In this document: positions 1,767 through 12,110 of the stretch, piece after piece
How positions within the stretch are numbered: the first letter of the stretch is position 1
Layout of the letters: the number at the start of each line of letters is the position of its first letter
NCBI GenBank assembly: GCA_022704885.1
Contig: JAKJFO010000121.1
Coordinates: 1 to 12,194 of the forward strand
Length of the DNA: 12,194 nucleotides
Source: Candidatus Rifleibacteriota bacterium
GTDB lineage: Bacteria > Riflebacteria > Ozemobacteria > Ozemobacterales > Ozemobacteraceae
Reading direction: 5' to 3'
The notes under the pieces: model-generated
What the model was told of the DNA's origin: nothing
What the model saw: the letters and a program-made list of their open reading frames with translations, nothing else
Database searches by the model: none
Position numbers and translations under genes: made by a program

Positions 1767-4700
1767 TCAGACCGAAAAGAGTTTTTTGACTCGCTCGTAG
1801 TCTTCTTCGGCTCGACGACGATTTTCGCCGGTAATACGGTTGAGTCGGTCTGTATATTCAGCACTTCTGGCGAGCAGCTGATTAATCGAACCTTCCAGCC
1901 AGGATTTATCGACATCATCAGGTAACGCGCAAAATTTCCAGTTACAGGCCCTGGCAAAAGAACTTACTTTGGGATCATAAGCGAGGCCAATCCAGGGAAT
2001 CCCGGCAAGAGTGGCAAGAATGCAGCCATGCAGACGCATTGAAACAACAAGCTCTGCCCCGGCAAGCAATTTTTCGGGCTCGTCAGAGCAAAAAACCCTG
2101 CCCATCCAATTGGCGCGCTGCCACAGACTATCATCTTCGCCAGGCTGCAGTGCTGCCGGGAAAAGATCGAAATTTTCGAACTCTTCGTGCATGTTGACCA
2201 GTTCTTCGGCCAGACGATCTGCGCCCGAGGCGCTTCCACGCAGAATAGCATAGACTTTGGGCAGTTCAATGGTGCTGAGCTTGCCACGGTGGGATATCTC
2301 GCTCAAAAAAGCTAGATCAGAGGTTACCGGAGCGTTCCTGATTCCGGCGATTTCTTCGAGAACGGTGGCCGACTCGATATCGCGCAGACTGACATATTCT
2401 GCCTGCCGCAATTCAGAGGCAAGCCACCGATTTACCGCTTCAGCGACTCTGCCACCTTTCCTGAAAGGCCCAAGTCCCTGTGCAGGGAGAATGACGCGGG
2501 CACCAGCCAGACGAGCCAGTGTCAGCAGTGTCAGGTAATAGACCAGACTGAGCTGACTGGTCGAAGACTGCAGCAGTCCACCACCCGGAATGACTACCGC
2601 TTCGCAGGTCATGATTTCTTCGAGCAATCCGAACAATGCCCGCCGCCGAACAATGGCCATACGTTCGCCAACCGGCAAAGGCGCACGACCACTGTGCAGC
2701 AGAACAACGCGGTGCCCGACAAAATCTTCAAGAAAACGGCGACAGAATGTACGCCAGAGCAGTTCGTCGCCAAGATTGCCATAACCGAAATAACCGATCA
2801 GCAGAACTTTTTTCTGCTTGTCGGAGCCGGCCAGAGACAACAGCCTGAGCACTGCCACCAGAAAAACTACAACAAGCCCGATGAGAATTCCCAGCCAGAT
2901 GCCATTGAAATTGCGCAGCAGGCTCAGCTGCAGAGGTGTATGGAAATGACACATCGAATTGACGGCAGAAACCTGACCCATTTGCATGAAAATCGCCAGC
3001 AACGGCAAAATAGTAAAGTTCTGGCGCAGATAAAAGAAAATAAACAGAAGAGCTGCCGGATATCCGACGAGAAATTCCTTATTACGTGGCCTTGCTACCA
3101 GCGTATTTTCTAGAAAAGTTCGAAACATGTCTTCAAATTCGGAAGGCTTGAGAAAAGTGACGTTGCCGGAACGCAGCAGATAGAGAATCGTGCCGGCGGC
3201 CAGAGCCGAAAGCATGAATACTCCTATCGGATTTACCGGCCGGTGCAGCAGCGTAAAAATTCCTCGTCCATAGGCTCGCAATGACCATAAGCCAGTAATA
3301 ATCAGAGGCAGAATGAATGCCAGTTTGATTCCGCGAAACTGCTCGAACCGCAGCAGGTATTCGACTTCGGAGTAAATGCCGGCAATCAGCACACCGCCCA
3401 GCAGCGAAGGCAGCACCTGGCGTAAGACAAATCCCGGAAGAATCTGCCAGAAAGAACGATTCTCGCAGTTACGCAGACTTTGCATGGCCCAGATAATACC
3501 AATACACGAACTGGCAACAGCCCCAACCAGACCCGACATGGCAATAAAAAGCCGGGTTGTCAGCAATGCATAACCCGACACGGCAACCACAAAAACAACG
3601 AAACACCAGCGCTCATCGAGCTCTGAAAAAAAACTGAGGCGCAACAGTATCAACAGACTGAGCAACAATGAAAGACCGATGGCAACTATTTCAAAAGGAC
3701 TCATGCGCCCGACCATATGGCGGGGGTCATGCATTCGCTGACTTTCATTGCGGGCGATACTGTAACCAGCACCTTCAAGGGCCTGCGCCGTCTGATAAAT
3801 GTAATCGAGATTGAATCTGACAAGGTTTTCGATGAACCTTTTGTCGTCCTGAAAAAAGCATCGAATATAAAGCATTTTCATGCTTCTGTCTTTGACCGCA
3901 CGCACCCAGCGAGCGACCGAGCGACGAACATTGTAGACCTGATCGACTTCTTTTCGAGTAATGCTGTGAACCCGCACGAAAGGCCGACTGGCCGCCAGGC
4001 CTTTGAGATAGGCTTCGATACCGTCCTGAATGTTGAATTCAACCCAGCCAATCCGGTAAGAACGGTTACGAAACTGCTCGATGATCGGCTTCAGTTCGCC
4101 ACGCACACCAAGCATTTCTTCTTCGGCGAACAGCAGAGCGGAAACTGAGGCCGGCGACGGGATCGAGTTGATAATGCTGGCCGCCGCCTCGACGGTCAGA
4201 CCAGGATAATTGAAAACGCGCACGACCAGACCAAGCCCGGCATCGTGCGCCATCTGAAAATATTCAGAAGAAAAACCAAGCCCGACTCTCTCGCGAAAGC
4301 CCTGACTGGATTTGTTGATGACGAGAAGGTTGCGATGAATACGCATGAGCCGGTCGGAGGTGAGTTTCCACGAAAGATTTTGCGCGATTCGATCGAGCAG
4401 CGCGGTATCTTCGGAATGCACCCATAGCGCACCAGGTGAACGGGCGCCGGCCGGCAGATCCTGTTCAAGGCCCTCATCAAGTGAAAGCGTTCGGATCTCT
4501 TTGCTGTTCATAACTGTGATGCGGCCTTCTGATTCGAGAGAAGAAAGCGTATCTTCAGAAACGGCTACCGAACTGGCGCCATTGGCGCGCAGGGCAGCAA
4601 AAAGCTCGCGCAGTATCCAGCCCTCTTCGCGCGCCAGCTGGCGAATTTCTTCAAAATCGACCACAGTTTCGACATAAACATTCTGTTGCTCAGCAACGTT

Positions 4701-4796
4701 GCGAAACAGGCAACGCCAGACCGCCACCAGCATGCCCGGAATGAACAAAGGCAGCAGAATCAGCCAGAAAGCCGGAATCTTCTTGAAAAGCTTCAT
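1767..4796 (-). CDS. csaB: DUF5693-like membrane module fused to CsaB-type polysaccharide pyruvyl transferase
   Basis: A 1009-residue membrane protein. Residues about 8-30 form a membrane anchor. Residues 35-360 look like the extracytoplasmic part of the DUF5693 family (the VVDFEEIRQLA and SVAVSEDTL stretches fit). Residues 365-655 are a polytopic membrane region. The C-terminal third is a pyruvyl transferase of the CsaB family: GYFGYGNLGDE at 668-678, a GGG loop at 738-740, PAQGLGP at 771-777, MRLHG at 920-924 with the family-conserved His923, and YDPKV at 940-944. CsaB transfers a ketal pyruvate from phosphoenolpyruvate to a wall polysaccharide, creating the ligand for SLH-domain proteins. 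In Firmicutes I recall the two parts as separate neighbouring genes, so the fusion is unusual. The ATG at 4796 lies 3 bases after the stop of the upstream gene and has only a weak Shine-Dalgarno, so translational coupling is likely. The pyruvyl transferase call is firm; the DUF5693 call is from memory of the family. Confidence 0.88.
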   Translation of the reverse strand: MKLFKKIPAFWLILLPLFIPGMLVAVWRCLFRNVAEQQNVYVETVVDFEEIRQLAREEGWILRELFAALRANGASSVAVSEDTLSSLESEGRITVMNSKEIRTLSLDEGLEQDLPAGARSPGALWVHSEDTALLDRIAQNLSWKLTSDRLMRIHRNLLVINKSSQGFRERVGLGFSSEYFQMAHDAGLGLVVRVFNYPGLTVEAAASIINSIPSPASVSALLFAEEEMLGVRGELKPIIEQFRNRSYRIGWVEFNIQDGIEAYLKGLAASRPFVRVHSITRKEVDQVYNVRRSVARWVRAVKDRSMKMLYIRCFFQDDKRFIENLVRFNLDYIYQTAQALEGAGYSIARNESQRMHDPRHMVGRMSPFEIVAIGLSLLLSLLILLRLSFFSELDERWCFVVFVVAVSGYALLTTRLFIAMSGLVGAVASSCIGIIWAMQSLRNCENRSFWQILPGFVLRQVLPSLLGGVLIAGIYSEVEYLLRFEQFRGIKLAFILPLIITGLWSLRAYGRGIFTLLHRPVNPIGVFMLSALAAGTILYLLRSGNVTFLKPSEFEDMFRTFLENTLVARPRNKEFLVGYPAALLFIFFYLRQNFTILPLLAIFMQMGQVSAVNSMCHFHTPLQLSLLRNFNGIWLGILIGLVVVFLVAVLRLLSLAGSDKQKKVLLIGYFGYGNLGDELLWRTFCRRFLEDFVGHRVVLLHSGRAPLPVGERMAIVRRRALFGLLEEIMTCEAVVIPGGGLLQSSTSQLSLVYYLTLLTLARLAGARVILPAQGLGPFRKGGRVAEAVNRWLASELRQAEYVSLRDIESATVLEEIAGIRNAPVTSDLAFLSEISHRGKLSTIELPKVYAILRGSASGADRLAEELVNMHEEFENFDLFPAALQPGEDDSLWQRANWMGRVFCSDEPEKLLAGAELVVSMRLHGCILATLAGIPWIGLAYDPKVSSFARACNWKFCALPDDVDKSWLEGSINQLLARSAEYTDRLNRITGENRRRAEEDYERVKKLFSV

Positions 4797-4799
4797 CGA

Positions 4800-5198
4800 T
4801 CAGGGAGTTGTCTCTTCGCTAAGATGCGAAGCAAGCAGCATGGTCGTCTTACGCGCCTTCAGCACGTAATCGCCAGATTCTGGCACAATGATCAGGTGGT
4901 TATGCGGCAGATCGTTGCCGCCGGCAATTTCACGACCGGCAGTCAGGTCAATGACCGCTTTGCCTTTCGCAGCTTCAAGTCTGAGCTGACCTGAGCGTAC
5001 GATCAGCATGCTGCCAGGCTGCGGGCTGATAGACGAGTCTGCCGGCAGCATTATCGAGCGAAACTTGAGAAAATGATCGACAAAGCTCTTTGAGACCAGC
5101 GGATCAGCAACCGTACCCGGGCTCTGAGCAATAGCGACGTGAACTGCGATCAGTGCCGCAATCAGTGCCAGCAGAATTCGCATTGAATTGTTATGCAT
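4800..5198 (-). CDS. small secreted protein co-transcribed with the pyruvyl transferase
   Basis: A 132-residue predicted exported protein with no named domain that I can assign. An N-terminal Sec signal (Arg7 followed by a hydrophobic run to about residue 24) probably ends at an AIA-Q site near residue 24/25. The mature part is short and apparently beta-rich. The pattern at 62-120 (PGSMLIVRSG, VIDLTAGREI, NHLIIVPESGDYVLKA) resembles a compact beta domain I have seen in hypothetical envelope proteins of Clostridia, but this is a resemblance only. The ATG at 5198 is preceded 7 bases upstream by AGGGAG. The later ATG at 5183 would be too far from it. The gene opens an operon with the fusion enzyme, so a role in the same wall polymer or its attached proteins is inferred. 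Confidence 0.75.
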   Translation of the reverse strand: MHNNSMRILLALIAALIAVHVAIAQSPGTVADPLVSKSFVDHFLKFRSIMLPADSSISPQPGSMLIVRSGQLRLEAAKGKAVIDLTAGREIAGGNDLPHNHLIIVPESGDYVLKARKTTMLLASHLSEETTP

Positions 5199-5226
5199 GC
5201 AACCACTCCCTGTCTGATATCGCCCA

Positions 5227-5255
5227 ACTGTACCATAGCCACCAGCAAATGTAAA
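5227..5255 (-). promoter_or_regulatory. promoter of the secreted-protein/CsaB operon
   Basis: On the minus strand, TTTACA (plus-strand 5250-5255, five of six matches) is followed after 17 bases by TACAGT (5227-5232, four of six), with an extended TGG just upstream of the -10. This predicts a start near 5220 and a leader of about 20 bases to the ATG at 5198. Confidence 0.5.
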
Positions 5256-5275
5256 ATCGGGAGGAGCCAAAAATA

Positions 5276-5304
5276 TTGTATTGTCAGGCGGGCTGAATTA
5301 AAAT
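5276..5304 (+). promoter_or_regulatory. candidate promoter of the orphan gene at 5337
   Basis: TAAAAT (5299-5304, five of six) is preceded 17 bases upstream by TTGTAT (5276-5281, three of six). A competing reading is TTGTCA (5281-5286) with TACAAC (5304-5309), also 17 bases apart. Either would start transcription 20-30 bases before the GGAGGA site at 5325-5330. The divergent operon promoter lies about 20 bases to the left. Confidence 0.35.
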
Positions 5305-5336
5305 ACAACTTCAACCGCACAACTGGAGGAATAAAT

Positions 5337-6065
5337 ATGCTGATCAACGAAATCGAAATCACTGGCTCGTCAATCTCGCTCAAATGCTGGGGAACCAGAT
5401 TCGAAGACGTTGCTGCGACCTTCAATCAGATTATGCAACGCGGCGACCAGTTCGATCTTGACAGCGAAATACCAGGATTTCATGACTGCGACTGCGAAAG
5501 CGAAGTAATTCGCGGTTTCTACTCAGTTGTCGTGCCTTTTGAAATAGAGCATCTCGTTGATGGAATCACCACCAAAACGCTTTTTAAACGCATTGAAAGT
5601 TGCGAATTCATCATCAACGAAAGAGGGATGTACTCATTTGGAAAATCCGGTCCCCAGAAACTGCTTGGCGCTGCTCTCGCAGCTGCAACCGGCGTGCATG
5701 TCGACCTCATCGAGTTTGAATTCAACCATCTAAGCATGCTGCAGGAGCGGATGACGAGAATCAAGACAATCGTCGTCACCAATCCGAAGGAAAAGGAAGT
5801 CAGACGCGCCCGTCTGGCTGGCCACATGGAAAGTTATACTGAATATAACATTGTCGACCCACGCAACCATGGCATAGAATCAGTTGCAGGCCTGGTCGAT
5901 ACGCCACTCGGGCCACTCACGATAAATGTCGGCAAAAAAGGCAGCATCAGGCTGAATGTAAAAAAAGGACTGATCATGACCCTCGAATGTCTCGACTGGA
6001 TCATGTCGCTGATCATGGACGAAAAGCGCCCCGACCCGGTTAAAGCACCCCAGTCAGCGTTCTAA
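5337..6065 (+). CDS. orphan protein of unknown function
   Basis: I do not recognise this 242-residue protein. It has no signal peptide or membrane segment and is probably cytoplasmic. The first half (1-105) alternates short strands and charged turns and includes a CDC pair (Cys51, Cys53) plus Cys17 and Cys89. A hydrophobic helix (LLGAALAAATG, 109-119) leads into a second half with a basic stretch (KEKEVRRAR, 151-159) and a glycine-rich TPLGPLTINVGKKG segment (189-202). The tail after about 228 is polar and proline-containing. The start is well supported: ATG at 5337 with GGAGGA six bases upstream; in-frame codons to the left lie in the promoter region. It is transcribed alone, divergent from the secreted-protein/CsaB operon, and its stop is only 9 bases from the stop of the convergent FHA gene. 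Coding is supported by length, ribosome site and codon use like its neighbours. Confidence 0.8.
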   Translation: MLINEIEITGSSISLKCWGTRFEDVAATFNQIMQRGDQFDLDSEIPGFHDCDCESEVIRGFYSVVVPFEIEHLVDGITTKTLFKRIESCEFIINERGMYSFGKSGPQKLLGAALAAATGVHVDLIEFEFNHLSMLQERMTRIKTIVVTNPKEKEVRRARLAGHMESYTEYNIVDPRNHGIESVAGLVDTPLGPLTINVGKKGSIRLNVKKGLIMTLECLDWIMSLIMDEKRPDPVKAPQSAF

Positions 6066-6074
6066 GCAACGAAC

Positions 6075-6947
6075 TCAGGCCACCGCTTCCGGCAGCACAT
6101 CGCGCGACCTTGCCAACCGCGAATGGTAGACGAAAACCCGGTCACCAACGGTAATGATATCTCCATCGACCAGCACCCGATAACGCAGAGCCGTGCGATT
6201 AACCTTTATTACGTGCTCGTCTTCGAGAGCCTCGACCACATGCATGCCATCTTTTTCGCTGATTGCGAAAAGGTGAGGCGGCCCTTCAGCCAGCGTCAGA
6301 TCGCATTCATCGGCTGATCCGGCAAGAAATTCATGTGCGTCGATATAATAGCGAAAAACGATCAACCGGCTTCTTTCTTCGTCGAGCCAGCTTTCCTTGA
6401 GGAGTTCCCAGGCGAGAGCGAAACCAAAACCGATCATGGCGCCCAGAAACAGGAAAGACAGCAGCAGATGGTTGTGAATGAACCGGTCGATCGATGACCC
6501 GGCAATAACAAAAGCCGGGGTCAGCCCCATCATGGTGCGGCACATAATTTTGAGGCTGTTGTGCAGCACACCGAAACTGGCTGCCAGACACAACGAAAGA
6601 AACAACCACCAGAAAAACCGCATGACTCCAGAAGGCAGCACAACCCAGGCCCCGGCGAAATCAGCTATTATTGCAAATATGACGGCGCCAAGCATGGTGA
6701 TCGACAGGCCAATCGATGTCGCCGAAATCCAGTATGCTCCTGCCTTGGCAAATTTTCGCTCCATAAAAATGACTGGCAGCGAAGACACCAGACCGCTGAA
6801 TAAGCCGCAAAACACGCCGGTTACCAGCAACCCGGTCTGAAAATTTTCGATCAGGTTCCAGGGGTTGGTATCAGGCGCAATCAGCCAGGCTCCAAAACCT
6901 GTAAGCAGGCCGGAAAAACAGACGGTAAAAAAGAAAAGCCAGTTCAA
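6075..6947 (-). CDS. polytopic membrane protein with degenerate C-terminal FHA domain
   Basis: A 290-residue inner-membrane protein. I see about six hydrophobic segments (near 3-24, 38-61, 72-100, 107-128, 139-152, 158-182), then a cytoplasmic domain at about 205-276 with the FHA layout: a first strand ending in AGSADECDL, His225, a VNRTAL turn with Asn250, then LVDGDIITVGDRVFVYH. FHA domains usually bind phosphothreonine. Here the usual Gly-Arg is Gly-Ser (210-211) and the Ser before the conserved His is Pro (PPH, 223-225), so canonical phosphopeptide binding is doubtful. No ATG is available before residue 63. I use TTG at 6947, with a GGAAG-like site upstream and an in-frame stop (TAA) six codons earlier. 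The ATPase gene on the same strand ends 81 bases upstream, with an intrinsic terminator between them. The 3' end has no terminator. Confidence 0.82.
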   Translation of the reverse strand: MNWLFFFTVCFSGLLTGFGAWLIAPDTNPWNLIENFQTGLLVTGVFCGLFSGLVSSLPVIFMERKFAKAGAYWISATSIGLSITMLGAVIFAIIADFAGAWVVLPSGVMRFFWWLFLSLCLAASFGVLHNSLKIMCRTMMGLTPAFVIAGSSIDRFIHNHLLLSFLFLGAMIGFGFALAWELLKESWLDEERSRLIVFRYYIDAHEFLAGSADECDLTLAEGPPHLFAISEKDGMHVVEALEDEHVIKVNRTALRYRVLVDGDIITVGDRVFVYHSRLARSRDVLPEAVA

Positions 6948-7028: not shown

Positions 7029-8309
7029 TCAGTCTATTGTTTCTACCAGGGTCAGATCCCTGACGAAGTAGATTCCGTATGCTTCGACCACCTCTTCATG
7101 AGTGATCTCAACATTCGGATCTTCAAGATACCTTTTGCGGTCGCGAATGATGTTGAGGATATCACGCGGATGCACAGCCCGCAAGCCTCTCTTGTCGGCT
7201 TTGTAAAGGACGAGAATATCGTCGATGTTGGTCTGGCTGAACTTCAAGCCCAGCTTGGAAATCGTCGATTTCCAGATTTCGGTGTATTCTTCTATGGTCG
7301 GGTTACGAACGTTGATCTTGTATGGCAGACGGCGCAGAAACGCGTCATCGACGATTTTCATCGGATCGAGGTTGGTCGAGAACAGAACGATTTCGTCGGT
7401 CGGCACTTCCATGCGCTGGCCACCGAGAACCAGATAGTCAACCTTGTTTTCGAGCGGAATGATGAAACGGTTGAAAATTTCCTCGACACCGCAGCGCTGG
7501 CGACCAAGGTCGTCGATGAGCAGAACGCCACCAGTAGCTTTAACCTGCGGTGGCGCATCAAAGCAGCCAAACTTGGTATTGTATTTAACTTCGAGGTCTT
7601 CGAGAGTCAGTTCGCCGCCGGCGGTGATCAGTGGCGGGTTAACTGCCACCCATCTCTCATCGTAACCTTCGAGATCGATTCCTTCGATCGGCACATGACA
7701 GCTGGGGTCAAAGACTCTGACCAGCTGGTTACTGACTTCAACGGCGTAAGGCACGATCATCGGCGGCAGCAGCTTGACTACAGAGCTGCACAGAAAGGTT
7801 TTACCATTGCCGGGAAAACCGTAGACAAATGCCGGCTTGCGCGCACAGACGGCCTGACCGATCTGAAACAGCACATCTTTGTAACCGAGATGATGTGAGA
7901 ACTTCTCTTCCATCAGTTTGCGGTTGATCGCAAATCCCTGTTTACCCTCGCTGAGAACCTGACGGGTGATTCTGATATATTCATCAAAACTGACCGGAGC
8001 CGGGCCAATATACTTGTCGCGGTCGAGAATGTTGCGGGCACGTTCGGTGCCTTTCGGATAAAGACCATACTGATAATCGGTGCCCATACCTGAACCACCG
8101 ACCATCCCGACGATTTCGAGCTTTTTCAGTTCGCTGATCACAGCCTGAACGATTTCGGTATTGATCTTGAGATCTCTGGCCAGGCGGCGTGGCACCTGTT
8201 TGCCATGTACGAACAGTTCTTTGATAATCAGATCGGTAATGATTTCGGGGTCTATCTTGAGGTCATGAAGCGTTTTGGCTTCGGCCGGAATGATTTTTTT
8301 AAGATCCAC
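7029..8309 (-). CDS. winged-helix AAA+ ATPase
   Basis: A 426-residue soluble AAA+ ATPase. Residues about 15-95 look like a winged-helix domain (helices, then the turn GMVGGSGMGTDYQYGL). A linker IGPAPVSFDEYIR (101-113) leads to the ATPase core: Walker A GFPGNGKT (164-171), Walker B GVLLIDDLGRQ (261-271), sensor 1 FSTNLDP with Asn313, Arg326/Arg327 in DDAFLRRLPY as candidate arginine fingers, and GLRAVHPRDI with Arg382 in the sensor-2 region. The same arrangement occurs in a widespread family annotated only as ATP-binding protein in proteobacteria and Planctomycetes; I know of no settled function. The start is GTG at 8309, with AGGGAGG (plus-strand 8319-8325) nine bases upstream. It has its own promoter and terminator, so it is a single-gene unit and its substrate is not shown by context. 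Confidence 0.93.
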   Translation of the reverse strand: MDLKKIIPAEAKTLHDLKIDPEIITDLIIKELFVHGKQVPRRLARDLKINTEIVQAVISELKKLEIVGMVGGSGMGTDYQYGLYPKGTERARNILDRDKYIGPAPVSFDEYIRITRQVLSEGKQGFAINRKLMEEKFSHHLGYKDVLFQIGQAVCARKPAFVYGFPGNGKTFLCSSVVKLLPPMIVPYAVEVSNQLVRVFDPSCHVPIEGIDLEGYDERWVAVNPPLITAGGELTLEDLEVKYNTKFGCFDAPPQVKATGGVLLIDDLGRQRCGVEEIFNRFIIPLENKVDYLVLGGQRMEVPTDEIVLFSTNLDPMKIVDDAFLRRLPYKINVRNPTIEEYTEIWKSTISKLGLKFSQTNIDDILVLYKADKRGLRAVHPRDILNIIRDRKRYLEDPNVEITHEEVVEAYGIYFVRDLTLVETID

Positions 8310-8445: not shown

Positions 8446-9054
8446 ATGCTCGATGCGCTGATATTACTGGCCGGTTATTCGAGCCGGATGGGGCAGCCGA
8501 AACAGCATACCAGCCTGGCAGGGAAAACTTTTCTCGAAACCATAACCAGCAAGCTGGTGGCATGCCGAAGCGAGTTTCGTCACCTGCTGTTTGTCGGCCA
8601 GCAAAGCGATTCAGCCGCCGAAAAACTTGTCATTGACCACGGCGGCACCTGGCTGATCAACCCGAACCCTGAACTTGGCCCGTTGAGTTCGATCAGAATC
8701 GCAATTCAGCACTGTTCTGACGATGTCGCCAAGATGCTGTGGCCGGTCGATCATCCGATGATAGCGGCCAGAACGATCAGCCAGCTGATCACCTTGTGGT
8801 CGAAAGAGACCAGCATGATCACGGTACCGTCAAATGGTGAGCGGCGAGGGCATCCGACGATTTTTCCCGACTGGTGCTGCCGCGAATTCTTTAACATAGA
8901 GCTCGACGCGGGAGCAAAAAAGCTGCTGCAGCTCTATCCCGATCGAATCAGATACCTGCTGACAGACGACATCTGGATCACCAGAAATCTTAACACTCCC
9001 CGGGCGCTGGCTGAAGCAGAGGCATGGCTGCAGACTAATCAGGCTCGACGATGA
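8446..9054 (+). CDS. MobA/MocA-like nucleotidyltransferase
   Basis: A 202-residue cytosolic protein of the MobA-like NTP-transferase fold, typical MocA length. The nucleotide-binding signature LLAGYSSRMGQPK is at 7-19, with Arg14 and Lys19 in the usual places. GPLSSIRIAI (78-87) and WPVDHPMI (99-106) follow, with Asp102 at the expected metal position. RRGHPTIF (133-140) and a GAKKLL helix (156-161) complete the family pattern. MocA proteins attach CMP to molybdopterin for xanthine-oxidase-type enzymes. No molybdenum-cofactor gene is nearby, so the acceptor may be different. The second Ala of the usual LAAG is shifted to LLAG, and the usual near-C-terminal DxDTP reads NLNTP (181-185). The start is ATG at 8446, with AAGGAG seven bases upstream; GTG at 8443 would leave only four. 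The last 20 bases overlap the 3' end of the convergent phosphatase gene. Confidence 0.85.
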   Translation: MLDALILLAGYSSRMGQPKQHTSLAGKTFLETITSKLVACRSEFRHLLFVGQQSDSAAEKLVIDHGGTWLINPNPELGPLSSIRIAIQHCSDDVAKMLWPVDHPMIAARTISQLITLWSKETSMITVPSNGERRGHPTIFPDWCCREFFNIELDAGAKKLLQLYPDRIRYLLTDDIWITRNLNTPRALAEAEAWLQTNQARR

Positions 9055-10297
9055 GCAGGGTGATATCGTCTGACGGGCTGGTATCTCCAAGCCAGTCTTT
9101 GAAGTCACCGATAATGCCCTGCACCGCCTGATCTACCGGCAGATCGCGGGTTTTCTGCAACAGCTGCAAAAACCTGTCATCACCAAAAAACTCTTTTGAG
9201 CCTTGGCGGCGGGCCTCTGTAATACCGTCAGAATAGAGAATCACACGATCTCCCGAGGACAACCGTAACGTGAATTCTTCGTAAATACAGTCATCGGTAA
9301 GCCCGACCGGAACATTGCCCTCGCGGCAGACAATGACCATACCGGCACGATCCTGCAGCAGCAGAGGGGTATGGCCAGCTCGACAATAGGTCAGGGTTCG
9401 CTTCTTCAGATCAATGATACCGTAGATCATGGTGAAATACTGAAAATTGTTCTTATCGAGCATGAACTCGGCATTGAGCTCGTTGGCGACCTCCGCCGGC
9501 GAGCGCGGTGTCCCGTCGGGAAGACGAAGTATGCTGTTTTCGCCTTCCCACGCAGACAGCATGCGATGAACGCTGACGGCAAGCATCGCTGACTGAATAC
9601 CATGCCCTGAAACATCGAGTATAAAAAGAGCAGCCATGCCGTTATCCAGTGGCATGATGTTGAGAAGGTCACCTCCGATATTTTCGCTGGTTTCGTAAAA
9701 CCACGAAAAATTAAGGCCGGGAATACTGATACGCTTATCTGGAAGCAGACTGCGCTGCATGTTGCCGGCAGCGGCCATGTCTTCTCGCAATTCTTCGAGA
9801 ACCTGGCTCAATCTCTGGTTTTTCTCTGCGAGTTCTTTCGCCAGCATTTCGAGTTCGGCCTCATGAAACTTACGATGATCGGTTTCTGACTTAAGCCGCA
9901 ACATCGATCTTATTCTGGCAACGAGCTCCAGTTCCTTGATCGGCTTGGTGACATAATCGACGGCACCAGCGTCAAAAGCTTCTACCAGGTCCTGGGTTTC
10001 CGAGCGGGCGCTGACCACGACTATCGGGATGTCCTGGTATTCAGGATGGTTTCGGATCTCGCGAATTGCCTGAATGCCCGAGATTTCCGGCATCATTATA
10101 TCCATGAGAACCATGTCGATCCTGGCATTTCGGGGTGACTCGACCAGACCGATGTATTCATAAGCCTCTCGGGCAGACGATGCCAGAAAAATGTTTTCGA
10201 AGCTTTCGCTCTCGAGAATGGCTTCGAGCAGCAGCAGATTATCAGGTGCGTCATCGACCACCAGAATGTTCATTTTGCCCTGAACATGTTTGCTCAT
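9035..10297 (-). CDS. response regulator with PP2C-type (RsbU/SpoIIE) phosphatase output
   Basis: A 420-residue cytoplasmic protein. The N-terminal receiver (9-135) has the acidic pair Asp15/Asp16, phosphoacceptor Asp66 (LMDIMMPE), the switch Ser96 and Lys118 in TKP. A coiled-coil linker (about 138-180) joins it to a PP2C-like serine/threonine phosphatase (181-420) with QRSLLP (181-186), GGD at 208-210, LDVSGHG (Asp228), RAGHTPLL (306-313), YSDGITEAR (Asp357) and SDDITLL (Asp410/Asp411). The metal-binding aspartates appear intact; the common second Asp of GGDxYD is Asn213. Proteins of this design usually dephosphorylate anti-sigma-factor antagonists when the receiver is phosphorylated, but no such partner is encoded here. 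The ATG at 10297 follows the kinase stop by 4 bases, with an AGAGAGG site inside the kinase end. Met9 is a weaker alternative start. The kinase immediately upstream is the likely phosphodonor. Confidence 0.94.
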   Translation of the reverse strand: MSKHVQGKMNILVVDDAPDNLLLLEAILESESFENIFLASSAREAYEYIGLVESPRNARIDMVLMDIMMPEISGIQAIREIRNHPEYQDIPIVVVSARSETQDLVEAFDAGAVDYVTKPIKELELVARIRSMLRLKSETDHRKFHEAELEMLAKELAEKNQRLSQVLEELREDMAAAGNMQRSLLPDKRISIPGLNFSWFYETSENIGGDLLNIMPLDNGMAALFILDVSGHGIQSAMLAVSVHRMLSAWEGENSILRLPDGTPRSPAEVANELNAEFMLDKNNFQYFTMIYGIIDLKKRTLTYCRAGHTPLLLQDRAGMVIVCREGNVPVGLTDDCIYEEFTLRLSSGDRVILYSDGITEARRQGSKEFFGDDRFLQLLQKTRDLPVDQAVQGIIGDFKDWLGDTSPSDDITLLIVEPD

Positions 10298-10301
10298 GCT
10301 G

Positions 10302-12062
10302 TTATACCTCTCTCTTTTTCAGATGCAGGCTGAAAGTAGACCCGCGCCCGAGCTCACTGGCAACCGAAATATCTATATCAAGCAGGTTGGCAAAAGACCT
10401 GGCGATGGCAAGCCCCAGTCCGGCGCCACCATAACGACGGGCAAGGCTGTTATCGCCCTGCTGAAACGCTTCAAAAATCACCTCGAGCTGATCATGTGCG
10501 ATACCAGGTCCTGAATCGGTAATCGACACTCGCTCAGGAAAATTCTGCTGATCTGTAGCCACTTCGATAAGAACTTTCGAGTGGTCGGAAAACTTGACCG
10601 CGTTATCGATAAGATTCTGTAAGATCTGGCGCAGCTTGACCTGATCTGACCTGATTTCACAACAGACCGGCGGAATTCTCAGCTCGATTTCGATACCCTT
10701 TTCTTCAATGAGAACCTGCATGAGATCTATGACCTCAGCGATCATGTCGCCGACATTGACGCTGGAAATATTTACTTCGGCAAAGCCTGATTCACTGCGT
10801 GAATAATCGAGAATGCTGTTGATCAGCTGCAATAATGCTTCGCCATTACGGCTGATACGTTCGAGAAACAGCATCTCTTTGGCGGTGAACTGCTCGGCAT
10901 GCCGCTGCAGATGCCGGGAAAACCCGATAATCGAATTAAGCGGAGTACGCAGTTCGTGATTCATCTTGGCAATAAACACGCTTTTAGCAGCGCTGGACTT
11001 CTCAGCTTCCAGCTTGGCATGCTGAAGCTCTTCAAGAATTCTGCGCTGTTCAGTTATATCGCGACTTACCCCGTAAACCGCCCGGTTCGCCCGATCTACC
11101 GAACTGTTCCACAGCATCCAGAGATATTCACCGTTCTTTTTGCGCAAACGCATGACACGTCCGACTACGTTGCGAACGCCGAGAATGTCGGTCAGAACCT
11201 GCCCTGATTCACCTAGATCGTCGGGGTGAATAAGAGTCGCCAGTTCACTGCCCTCGAGTTCGCCGACGGCGTATCCCATGACATCCTGCCACTGAGGGTT
11301 AACCCGCTTGAATCTGCCATCGAAACCAAGAATGCAGAAAAGGTCGAGAGACATCAGAAAAAAACTGTTGCGCTCACTTTCGAGCTTGCGCGACTCGGAA
11401 AGATCTCTGATAAAGCCGGTAAAAAGGCTGCCTGACTCGAGTCTGACTTCGCCAACTGCCAGATCGACCGGAAAAAGAGAGCCGTCACGACGTTGCGCAT
11501 CTACCTGCCGCCCAATGCCGATTATGTGCGGGATTCTGGTATTCAGATAACGCTGCATGTATTCATCGTGTCGGCTGCGATGAGGTTCTGGCGCCAACAT
11601 TGAAACGTTGTTTCCCAGAACTTCGCAGGCATAGTAGCCGAACATCTTTTCGGCAGCACGATTGAACCCCTGAATGACACCTTTCTGATCGATAATGACG
11701 ATTCCATCGACAGCAAGTTCGATAATGGTCGACAGCGTCTTTTCACTTACCATCAACGGTGTATCGCTGGCCGAAAATGAGTTGCCAGCCTCGCTCTCGC
11801 AAATCTCGCCGCTTACAGTAAGACAGGCGCGGCCGTTCAGCAACTTTCGCTCAACGCGAAAAAAGCCACAGCGACGGGTTCCCTGCCAGAAAAATGGCAT
11901 CTTCCTCTCAAGGGCTGTAAACTCAGAAGATATTATGCTGGCAAAAACATCTGTATCAGCCAGACAGGGAAAAACATCGGCCAGCTGATACCTATTTTCT
12001 GCATCTTCAGCCATATCGGTAGAATGCAGAGCCAGATTGTCGAGCCAGAAAACGAACAGCAA
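10302..12062 (-). CDS. PAS-PAS sensor histidine kinase with FixL-like haem-PAS signature
   Basis: A 586-residue cytoplasmic kinase without membrane segments. Residues 1-105 hold no clear domain, perhaps a worn PAS fold. PAS 1 (about 110-228) strongly resembles the oxygen-sensing PAS of FixL: His165, Arg171, His179, Ile180, Arg185, Leu201 and Val203 line up without gaps with BjFixL His200 (haem ligand), Arg206, His214, Ile215, Arg220, Leu236 and Ile238. PAS 2 (about 232-350) carries an HPDD motif and ends in SRDITEQ. The HisKA box MNHELRTPLN has phosphoacceptor His369. The ATPase domain has Asn487 (N box), DSGPG (516-520) and GGAGLGLA (545-552). There is no receiver on the kinase itself. I prefer TTG at 12062 because GGTGGAGGT lies 6 bases upstream; the ATG at 12104 has no ribosome site. 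The receiver-PP2C gene begins 4 bases after its stop. Kinase identity is certain; haem binding is inferred. Confidence 0.93.
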   Translation of the reverse strand: MLFVFWLDNLALHSTDMAEDAENRYQLADVFPCLADTDVFASIISSEFTALERKMPFFWQGTRRCGFFRVERKLLNGRACLTVSGEICESEAGNSFSASDTPLMVSEKTLSTIIELAVDGIVIIDQKGVIQGFNRAAEKMFGYYACEVLGNNVSMLAPEPHRSRHDEYMQRYLNTRIPHIIGIGRQVDAQRRDGSLFPVDLAVGEVRLESGSLFTGFIRDLSESRKLESERNSFFLMSLDLFCILGFDGRFKRVNPQWQDVMGYAVGELEGSELATLIHPDDLGESGQVLTDILGVRNVVGRVMRLRKKNGEYLWMLWNSSVDRANRAVYGVSRDITEQRRILEELQHAKLEAEKSSAAKSVFIAKMNHELRTPLNSIIGFSRHLQRHAEQFTAKEMLFLERISRNGEALLQLINSILDYSRSESGFAEVNISSVNVGDMIAEVIDLMQVLIEEKGIEIELRIPPVCCEIRSDQVKLRQILQNLIDNAVKFSDHSKVLIEVATDQQNFPERVSITDSGPGIAHDQLEVIFEAFQQGDNSLARRYGGAGLGLAIARSFANLLDIDISVASELGRGSTFSLHLKKREV

Positions 12063-12068
12063 ATTAGA

Positions 12069-12077
12069 ACCTCCACC
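12069..12077 (-). promoter_or_regulatory. strong ribosome binding site deciding a TTG start
   Basis: GGTGGAGGT on the minus strand is nearly full anti-16S complement and lies exactly 6 bases before TTG at 12062. It fixes the kinase start there instead of at the ATG 14 codons upstream, which has only A/T-rich sequence before it. Confidence 0.7.
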
Positions 12078-12081
12078 GGCA

Positions 12082-12110
12082 ATTGTAGTGTTCACGCCAA
12101 TCATTGAGTA
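12082..12110 (-). promoter_or_regulatory. weak candidate promoter of the kinase/phosphatase operon
   Basis: On the minus strand, TACTCA (12105-12110, three of six) is followed after 17 bases by TACAAT (12082-12087, five of six). The start would fall at about 12075, too close to the ribosome site, so a promoter further upstream or outside the window is equally likely. I see no other feature between 12111 and the window end. Confidence 0.2.

Follow-up and report, generated by a model that had tools for sequence, protein, structure and literature searches.

We consider it rather likely that the window, the whole stretch of 12,194 nucleotides analysed here from a Candidatus Rifleibacteriota bacterium, encodes a haem-based gas sensor kinase with a receiver-phosphatase partner, and that the system obtains its haem by a sirohaem-dependent route and has a partner switch as its output. 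The sensor kinase may signal the presence of oxygen, or of some other small gas, to a stress-type response in a host that is probably anaerobic. This reading is built on the computed sequence and fold match, the conserved pocket, the gene pair, the kinase, receiver and phosphatase motifs and the haem-synthesis genes. FixL-type haem-PAS domains outside FixLJ are already known, and the available parts of two papers on Vibrio RsbR (PMC4976288; PMC9237108) establish that haem-based oxygen sensing can be joined to partner switching. The available parts of the literature on FixL and haem sensors, and on PP2C phosphatases and partner switching, contained no FixL-type kinase paired with a receiver-PP2C. 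If the reading is correct, it would extend FixL-type gas sensing to a partner-switching output, in hosts that apparently cannot respire oxygen and apparently dispense with ferrochelatase in making haem. It would also provide a natural series of haem sensor, His-less sensor and no sensor beside one phosphatase family, which serves the study of how signalling inputs are exchanged.

The sensor kinase

The sensor histidine kinase is encoded on the minus strand by an open reading frame at 10302..12104, 600 codons counted from ATG. The likely true start is the TTG at 12062, which leaves 586 codons, since GGTGGAGG lies upstream of it and 8 of the other 11 proteins aligned with the kinase start at the same place. 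Residues are numbered here from the ATG; subtracting 14 gives the numbers used in a preliminary description of this DNA, which fit the TTG start. Pfam recognises PAS, PAS_3, HisKA and HATPase_c in the kinase. PAS1, the FixL-type haem-PAS, spans residues 117-241 (11382..11756, minus strand) and is followed by PAS2 (11040..11372, minus strand), where Pfam matches the PAS_3 family at residues 267-337 and the limits 245-355 are an estimate. HisKA (10785..10985, minus strand) contains the predicted phospho-acceptor His383 within MNHELRTPLN, a role assigned to this His by family, and HATPase_c (10311..10646, minus strand) contains what we take to be the N, G1, F and G2 motifs.

The N-terminal part of the protein (11775..12062, minus strand) is a fast-evolving domain with no Pfam match. 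Structure prediction gives it a PAS-like order of strands and helices, E-E-H-H-H-E-E-E, with pLDDT 82-93 in blocks 1-9 of ten (7 sequences only). In one related genome (G010, locus L182) the region matching this domain resembles a canonical PAS. Mean pairwise identity among nine non-redundant orthologues is 89.0% for PAS1, 75.4% for the HATPase domain and 41.2% for the N-terminal domain, and the conservation of PAS1 in this set equals that of HisKA.

The haem pocket of PAS1

It had been proposed from the sequence that seven haem-pocket positions of Bradyrhizobium FixL (BjFixL) recur in this kinase at a constant offset of 35, six of them identical and one conservative. The positions are indeed found in a PAS domain of the 600-codon frame. 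The offset is reproduced by VIA-align against 1dp6 in the PDB's own numbering (model residues 29-141 paired with 1dp6 154-266, 113 residues per side), and the alignment to the PDB sequence has six identities and Val in place of Ile238. In ATG numbering the residues are H179, R185, H193, I194, R199, L215 and V217. His179 (His165 in the earlier numbering; 11568..11570, minus strand) pairs with BjFixL His200 on helix F-alpha in both the sequence and the structure alignment, and is the predicted proximal haem ligand. Alignment equates Arg185 (11550..11552) with Arg206 and His193-Ile194 (11523..11528) with His214-Ile215, both on the minus strand. We take BjFixL Arg220 to be the distal O2 contact and Leu236 to Ile238 to be the distal hydrophobic wall; Arg199 (11508..11510, minus strand) and Leu215 to Val217 (11454..11462, minus strand) are their predicted counterparts. 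At the sequence level PAS1 keeps R199 and has I197 where DosP has what we presume is its distal Met; FixL likewise has Ile there.

The seven positions are unequal in diagnostic value. None of them varies among the 12 aligned proteins, a count that includes the query and near-copies and leaves 9 proteins below 97% mutual identity. The seven are also kept in the orthologues from whole genomes (7 of 7), down to 57-62% PAS identity, where an orthologue has at least 59% identity in the genome search and the same neighbour genes; such kinases occur in 7 of 39 genomes of the phylum. When the best 120 of 6910 matches and the query are compared, the positions of His200, Arg220 and Leu236 are each kept in 121 of 121 proteins, that of Ile215 in 116, that of Arg206 in only 78 and that of His214 in only 24, and these counts lean upward because the set consists of the most similar proteins. 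S. meliloti FixL has Arg at the His214 position. His214 and Arg206 were discarded as haem markers because other residues occupy these positions in S. meliloti FixL and in many relatives that do have His200. The phylum yields 26 PAS matches at E 1e-10 or better; His occupies the ligand position in 19 of them and is missing from 7, and the full set is present in 7. Plasmid records include 709 with a PAS match, foremost from Sinorhizobium, Rhizobium and Agrobacterium, with some sites annotated fixL; none reaches 60% identity.

The match between PAS1 and FixL is far beyond chance. In a search of PDB sequences PAS1 aligns with BjFixL at E 4.7e-35 over 122 residues without a gap, followed by S. meliloti FixL (1.5e-29), DosP (9.8e-16) and FG214 (10jx; 2.6e-11), with the first LOV sequences near 1e-4. 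A profile search gives E 1e-48 for FixL, 2.5e-29 for DosP, 1.6e-18 for FG214 and 1.8e-13 for the first LOV protein. FixL is also the top fold match, identity in the structural matches is 44-52%, and the nearest structural matches of this PAS fold lie inside the FixL/DosP cluster (cluster 3 of PMC10468136). The preliminary description had recommended profile alignment, structure prediction and phylogeny as checks. The first two place PAS1 nearest to the FixL haem domain by sequence, profile and fold and so support its suggestion of a haem-based sensor of oxygen or another diatomic gas, haem binding being predicted from sequence and model. Phylogeny gave a divided answer: the Riflebacteria form a clade (100/99), but the backbone is open and PAS1 is joined neither to FixL nor to the haem-less PAS domains.

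The tree has 97 rows and 132 columns, with 91 of 96 candidate rows and six added; the five rows dropped are L001-L003, which repeat other rows, and two that are duplicate, short or stop-containing. At least 15 changes of the His state are needed on it, and with the open backbone this means that the tree cannot settle membership. In the part of PMC10468136 available, about 40% of the FixL/DosP PAS cluster is without the His, which indicates that ligands change within this family. The closest full-length proteins have 84-99% identity to PAS1, and those that are named belong to Candidatus Riflebacteria or Candidatus Rifleibacterium amylolyticum. Riflebacteria records also supply the three best genome loci. 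A literature search found nothing naming Rifleibacterium.

The receiver-PP2C neighbour

The output gene begins 4 nt past the kinase stop (9035..10297, minus strand) and encodes 420 aa. Pfam identifies a receiver domain with Asp66 at 9908-10267 and a SpoIIE-type PP2C phosphatase domain at 9044-9640, both on the minus strand. The GGD, DVSGHG, SDG and SDD motifs, which we take to be those of the PP2C metal site, are present. An output differing from the nitrogen-fixation cascade had been suggested earlier, and the suggestion is now specific, as the conserved neighbour is a receiver-PP2C phosphatase. It adjoins the kinase in all seven genomes with an orthologous kinase; in one of them (G028) the contig breaks off 157 aa into the receiver-PP2C, whose remainder is on another contig. 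The gene itself is present in eight of 39 genomes, 62-93% identical, and the haem-PAS kinase adjoins it in seven.

The order kinase, receiver-PP2C, MobA-like protein and ATPase is kept across the Riflebacteria loci wherever the contigs are long enough to show it. The ATPase-like protein (window 7029-8309) has no Pfam family above cut-off and is 81-95% identical across the Riflebacteria loci holding it whole, a higher conservation than that of the kinase. Two further conserved proteins of the block (5193-6065 and 6075-6947) have no Pfam match at E 1. A fusion of DUF5693 and a CsaB-like polysaccharide pyruvyl transferase is encoded at 1767-4796 as one 1009-aa protein.

Relatives vary in the sensor that accompanies the phosphatase. 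G027 (L211:6604-7917) retains the receiver-PP2C, at 73% identity, together with the syntenic block but has no matching kinase adjoining; the sensor gene seems to have been lost or moved. G012 and G015 have receiver-PP2C homologues of 46-51% identity beside kinases whose PAS is without the His. The G012 kinase (L183:2-1955) has one PAS with Ser at the haem-ligand position, and the adjoining homologue is cut by the contig end. In G015 the PAS aligns weakly (27%) and the kinase has a CHASE domain. These three genomes indicate that the receiver-PP2C output is not tied to haem sensing.

Loci with a related PAS were compared more widely, using the best 80 of at least 569 from a scan with two patterns, one of which, PHIIGIGR, itself holds three of the seven positions. 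Four of these best 80 match a PP2C profile built from Riflebacteria homologues, which may miss a distant PP2C, and short loci may end before the neighbour. Three of the four are Riflebacteria, adjoining the kinase, and one is Colwellia, about 6.5 kb off. Within the sampled loci, the best 80 of at least 569, an adjacent receiver-PP2C occurs only in Riflebacteria. In 47 of the 76 loci from this set that have a scored PAS, a receiver ORF no longer than 450 aa lies within 4 kb. Ten chosen receivers were scanned: six are REC-LuxR, and those are the six picked for FixJ-like size; three are receiver only, and one is REC-HATPase_c_2, two genes downstream. Haem-PAS may have been linked to partner switching independently in a SAR324 MAG (L004:9992-14366), where the genes after a FixL-like PAS kinase that has the His encode a receiver-kinase and a receiver-HATPase_c_2 protein.

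As for the remaining parts of a partner switch, no STAS or sigma gene and no switch kinase was recognised among the window ORFs scanned. STAS domains are present in 3 of 3 genomes examined (14, 15 and 17 matches), as is HATPase_c_2 (16, 17 and 18 matches, some below cut-off).

Haem supply and oxygen metabolism

Genome-wide searches were done on the genomes of relatives, and absences in those other than Ch46 may be gaps. For Ch46, the available part of PMC7509429 gives 98% completeness and 2% contamination and shows no cox, norB or other marker gene. None of 7 genomes gave a match to ferrochelatase or to haem-copper oxidase, and none of 3 gave one to CydA; among 14 control genomes, each of these models is positive in 8 to 10. 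Of 10 genomes searched, 9 have AhbB above its cut-off, among them all 7 with the kinase, and in each of these 7 a weaker family member lies nearby. hemB is present in 3 of 3 genomes searched. A cluster in CH46 (L178:9217-13544) brings together hemB, hemL and a radical SAM gene of the AhbD-like type with two genes of the AhbB family, namely ahbB (177.7 bits, cut-off 125) and one that is probably ahbA; hemA and an AhbC-like gene sit outside it (L178, L179). Both the AhbD-like gene (313 bits, cut-off 500) and the AhbC-like one (517, cut-off 650) score under the curated cut-offs. Judged by gene content, the kinase-bearing genomes likely encode a sirohaem-dependent haem route, with no ferrochelatase found. 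The sole AhbB miss among the 10 genomes is G012, a genome that may be incomplete and in whose kinase Ser takes the place of the ligand; this single case is suggestive of a link between loss of the His and haem supply. All 7 genomes examined have a cytochrome c assembly family, which makes further uses of haem probable.

Persulfide dioxygenase uses O2. A gene for this enzyme and anaerobic sulfite reductase genes are reported in Riflebacteria in the available part of PMC10811913, so O2 may be more to these organisms than a hazard. Riflebacteria are counted among fermentative heterotrophs in a metagenome study (PMC7509429, seen in part).

Proposed mechanism and alternatives

From these results we infer haem binding, the ligand, phosphotransfer, the direction of the switch and the STAS target, as follows. 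PAS1 would bind haem b through His179 in a five-coordinate FixL-type site, with haem supplied by the sirohaem-dependent route. A diatomic gas, most likely O2, would bind in the pocket formed by Ile194, Arg199, Leu215 and Val217 and change autophosphorylation at His383. Asp66 in the receiver encoded by the next gene would accept the phosphoryl group, and the phosphorylated receiver would alter the activity of the PP2C domain. The phosphatase may then dephosphorylate one or more STAS-type antagonists and shift a partner switch that acts on a sigma factor or another target. A likely use would be as an oxygen alarm, in organisms where no terminal oxidase was found. Chances seem about even for the fuller proposal that, in this oxidase-less branch, a FixL-type kinase loaded with haem from the sirohaem route acts as an oxygen alarm through an RsbU-like phosphatase and a partner switch, with an exchangeable input module. 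Exchange of the module is suggested by relatives that keep a homologous phosphatase with a His-less sensor, or none, adjoining.

What else could PAS1 be doing? It may hold haem and sense NO, CO, redox state or haem availability through the same receiver-PP2C pathway. We regard this as unlikely, though the strongest of the alternatives. The missing haem-copper oxidase (0/7) and CydA (0/3) make O2 probably no respiratory substrate, which favours another ligand, and haem PAS proteins that sense redox or haem level are reported in the available part of PMC13060918. Nevertheless, the pocket is of the FixL kind, with Ile at the DosP Met position and Arg220 kept, FixL is the model for O2 sensing, and sensing O2 would be useful to an anaerobe. 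It is less probable still that PAS1 keeps the FixL fold and residues and holds no haem in the cell, serving as a structural or dimerisation PAS or binding some other ligand. PAS domains do change ligands, the His is missing in 7 of 26 phylum matches, and the Ser-bearing G012 kinase adjoins a receiver-PP2C homologue. However, a haem-free PAS1 does not fit well with the conservation of all seven pocket positions even in orthologues of 57-62% PAS identity, nor with the encoded haem-synthesis genes, and the Ser-bearing G012 alone is without an AhbB match among 10 genomes.

That the kinase is an ordinary FixL orthologue of a FixLJ system is very improbable. The NCBIfam FixL model does match, with its best stretch on PAS1, but the full-length score is 180.9 against a cut-off of 850 (NF041777) and four other kinase models score higher. 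The neighbour is a receiver-PP2C and not a REC-LuxR protein, and a receiver-SpoIIE homologue is present in 7 of 7 genomes. NifH (PF00142) reaches at best 47.8 bits in 7 genomes, which is weak evidence as the model is positive in all 14 controls and no true NifH was scored alongside for comparison. The preferred reading remains a haem-based gas sensor with a receiver-phosphatase partner.

Comparison with known systems

FixL of the FixLJ systems of Bradyrhizobium and Sinorhizobium has the haem-PAS fold and pocket and the HisKA-HATPase output in common with the kinase described here. In the candidate phylum Riflebacteria, however, a further PAS lies between sensor and kinase, and a receiver-PP2C replaces the REC-LuxR neighbour. 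For S. meliloti FixL the available part of PMC10765370 places the Soret band near 418 nm in the oxy form, 434 nm in the deoxy form and 424 nm with CO. The proximal His and the Arg of DosP (EcDOS) align with PAS1 at 27-33% identity, but DosP has the distal Met where Ile is found here and is a c-di-GMP phosphodiesterase by record annotation. The DosP haem-PAS is in the same PAS cluster as FixL according to the available part of PMC10468136.

Haem-based O2 sensing also feeds partner switching in the Vibrio RsbR stressosome. As far as the available parts of PMC4976288 and PMC9237108 describe it, the sensor there is a globin in RsbR, within a stressosome of RsbR, RsbS, RsbT and RsbX, and no histidine kinase with a receiver-PP2C is involved. 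RsbP of Bacillus subtilis likewise couples PAS sensing to a partner-switching PP2C-type phosphatase; in the available part of PMC3183031, however, PAS and phosphatase are in one protein, with the RsbQ hydrolase and no two-component step. Regulators of the RssB kind (NCBIfam NF045505) share the architecture of receiver and SpoIIE phosphatase, but the score of 142.9 against a cut-off of 700 indicates that the protein is not the Pseudomonas equivalog, and here it adjoins a haem-PAS kinase. Treponema denticola is an anaerobe. Its Hpk2 is reported to be a PAS histidine kinase that binds haem and senses oxygen level, as cited in the available part of PMC10468136, and haem oxygen sensing by a PAS histidine kinase would be what it has in common with the Riflebacteria kinase.
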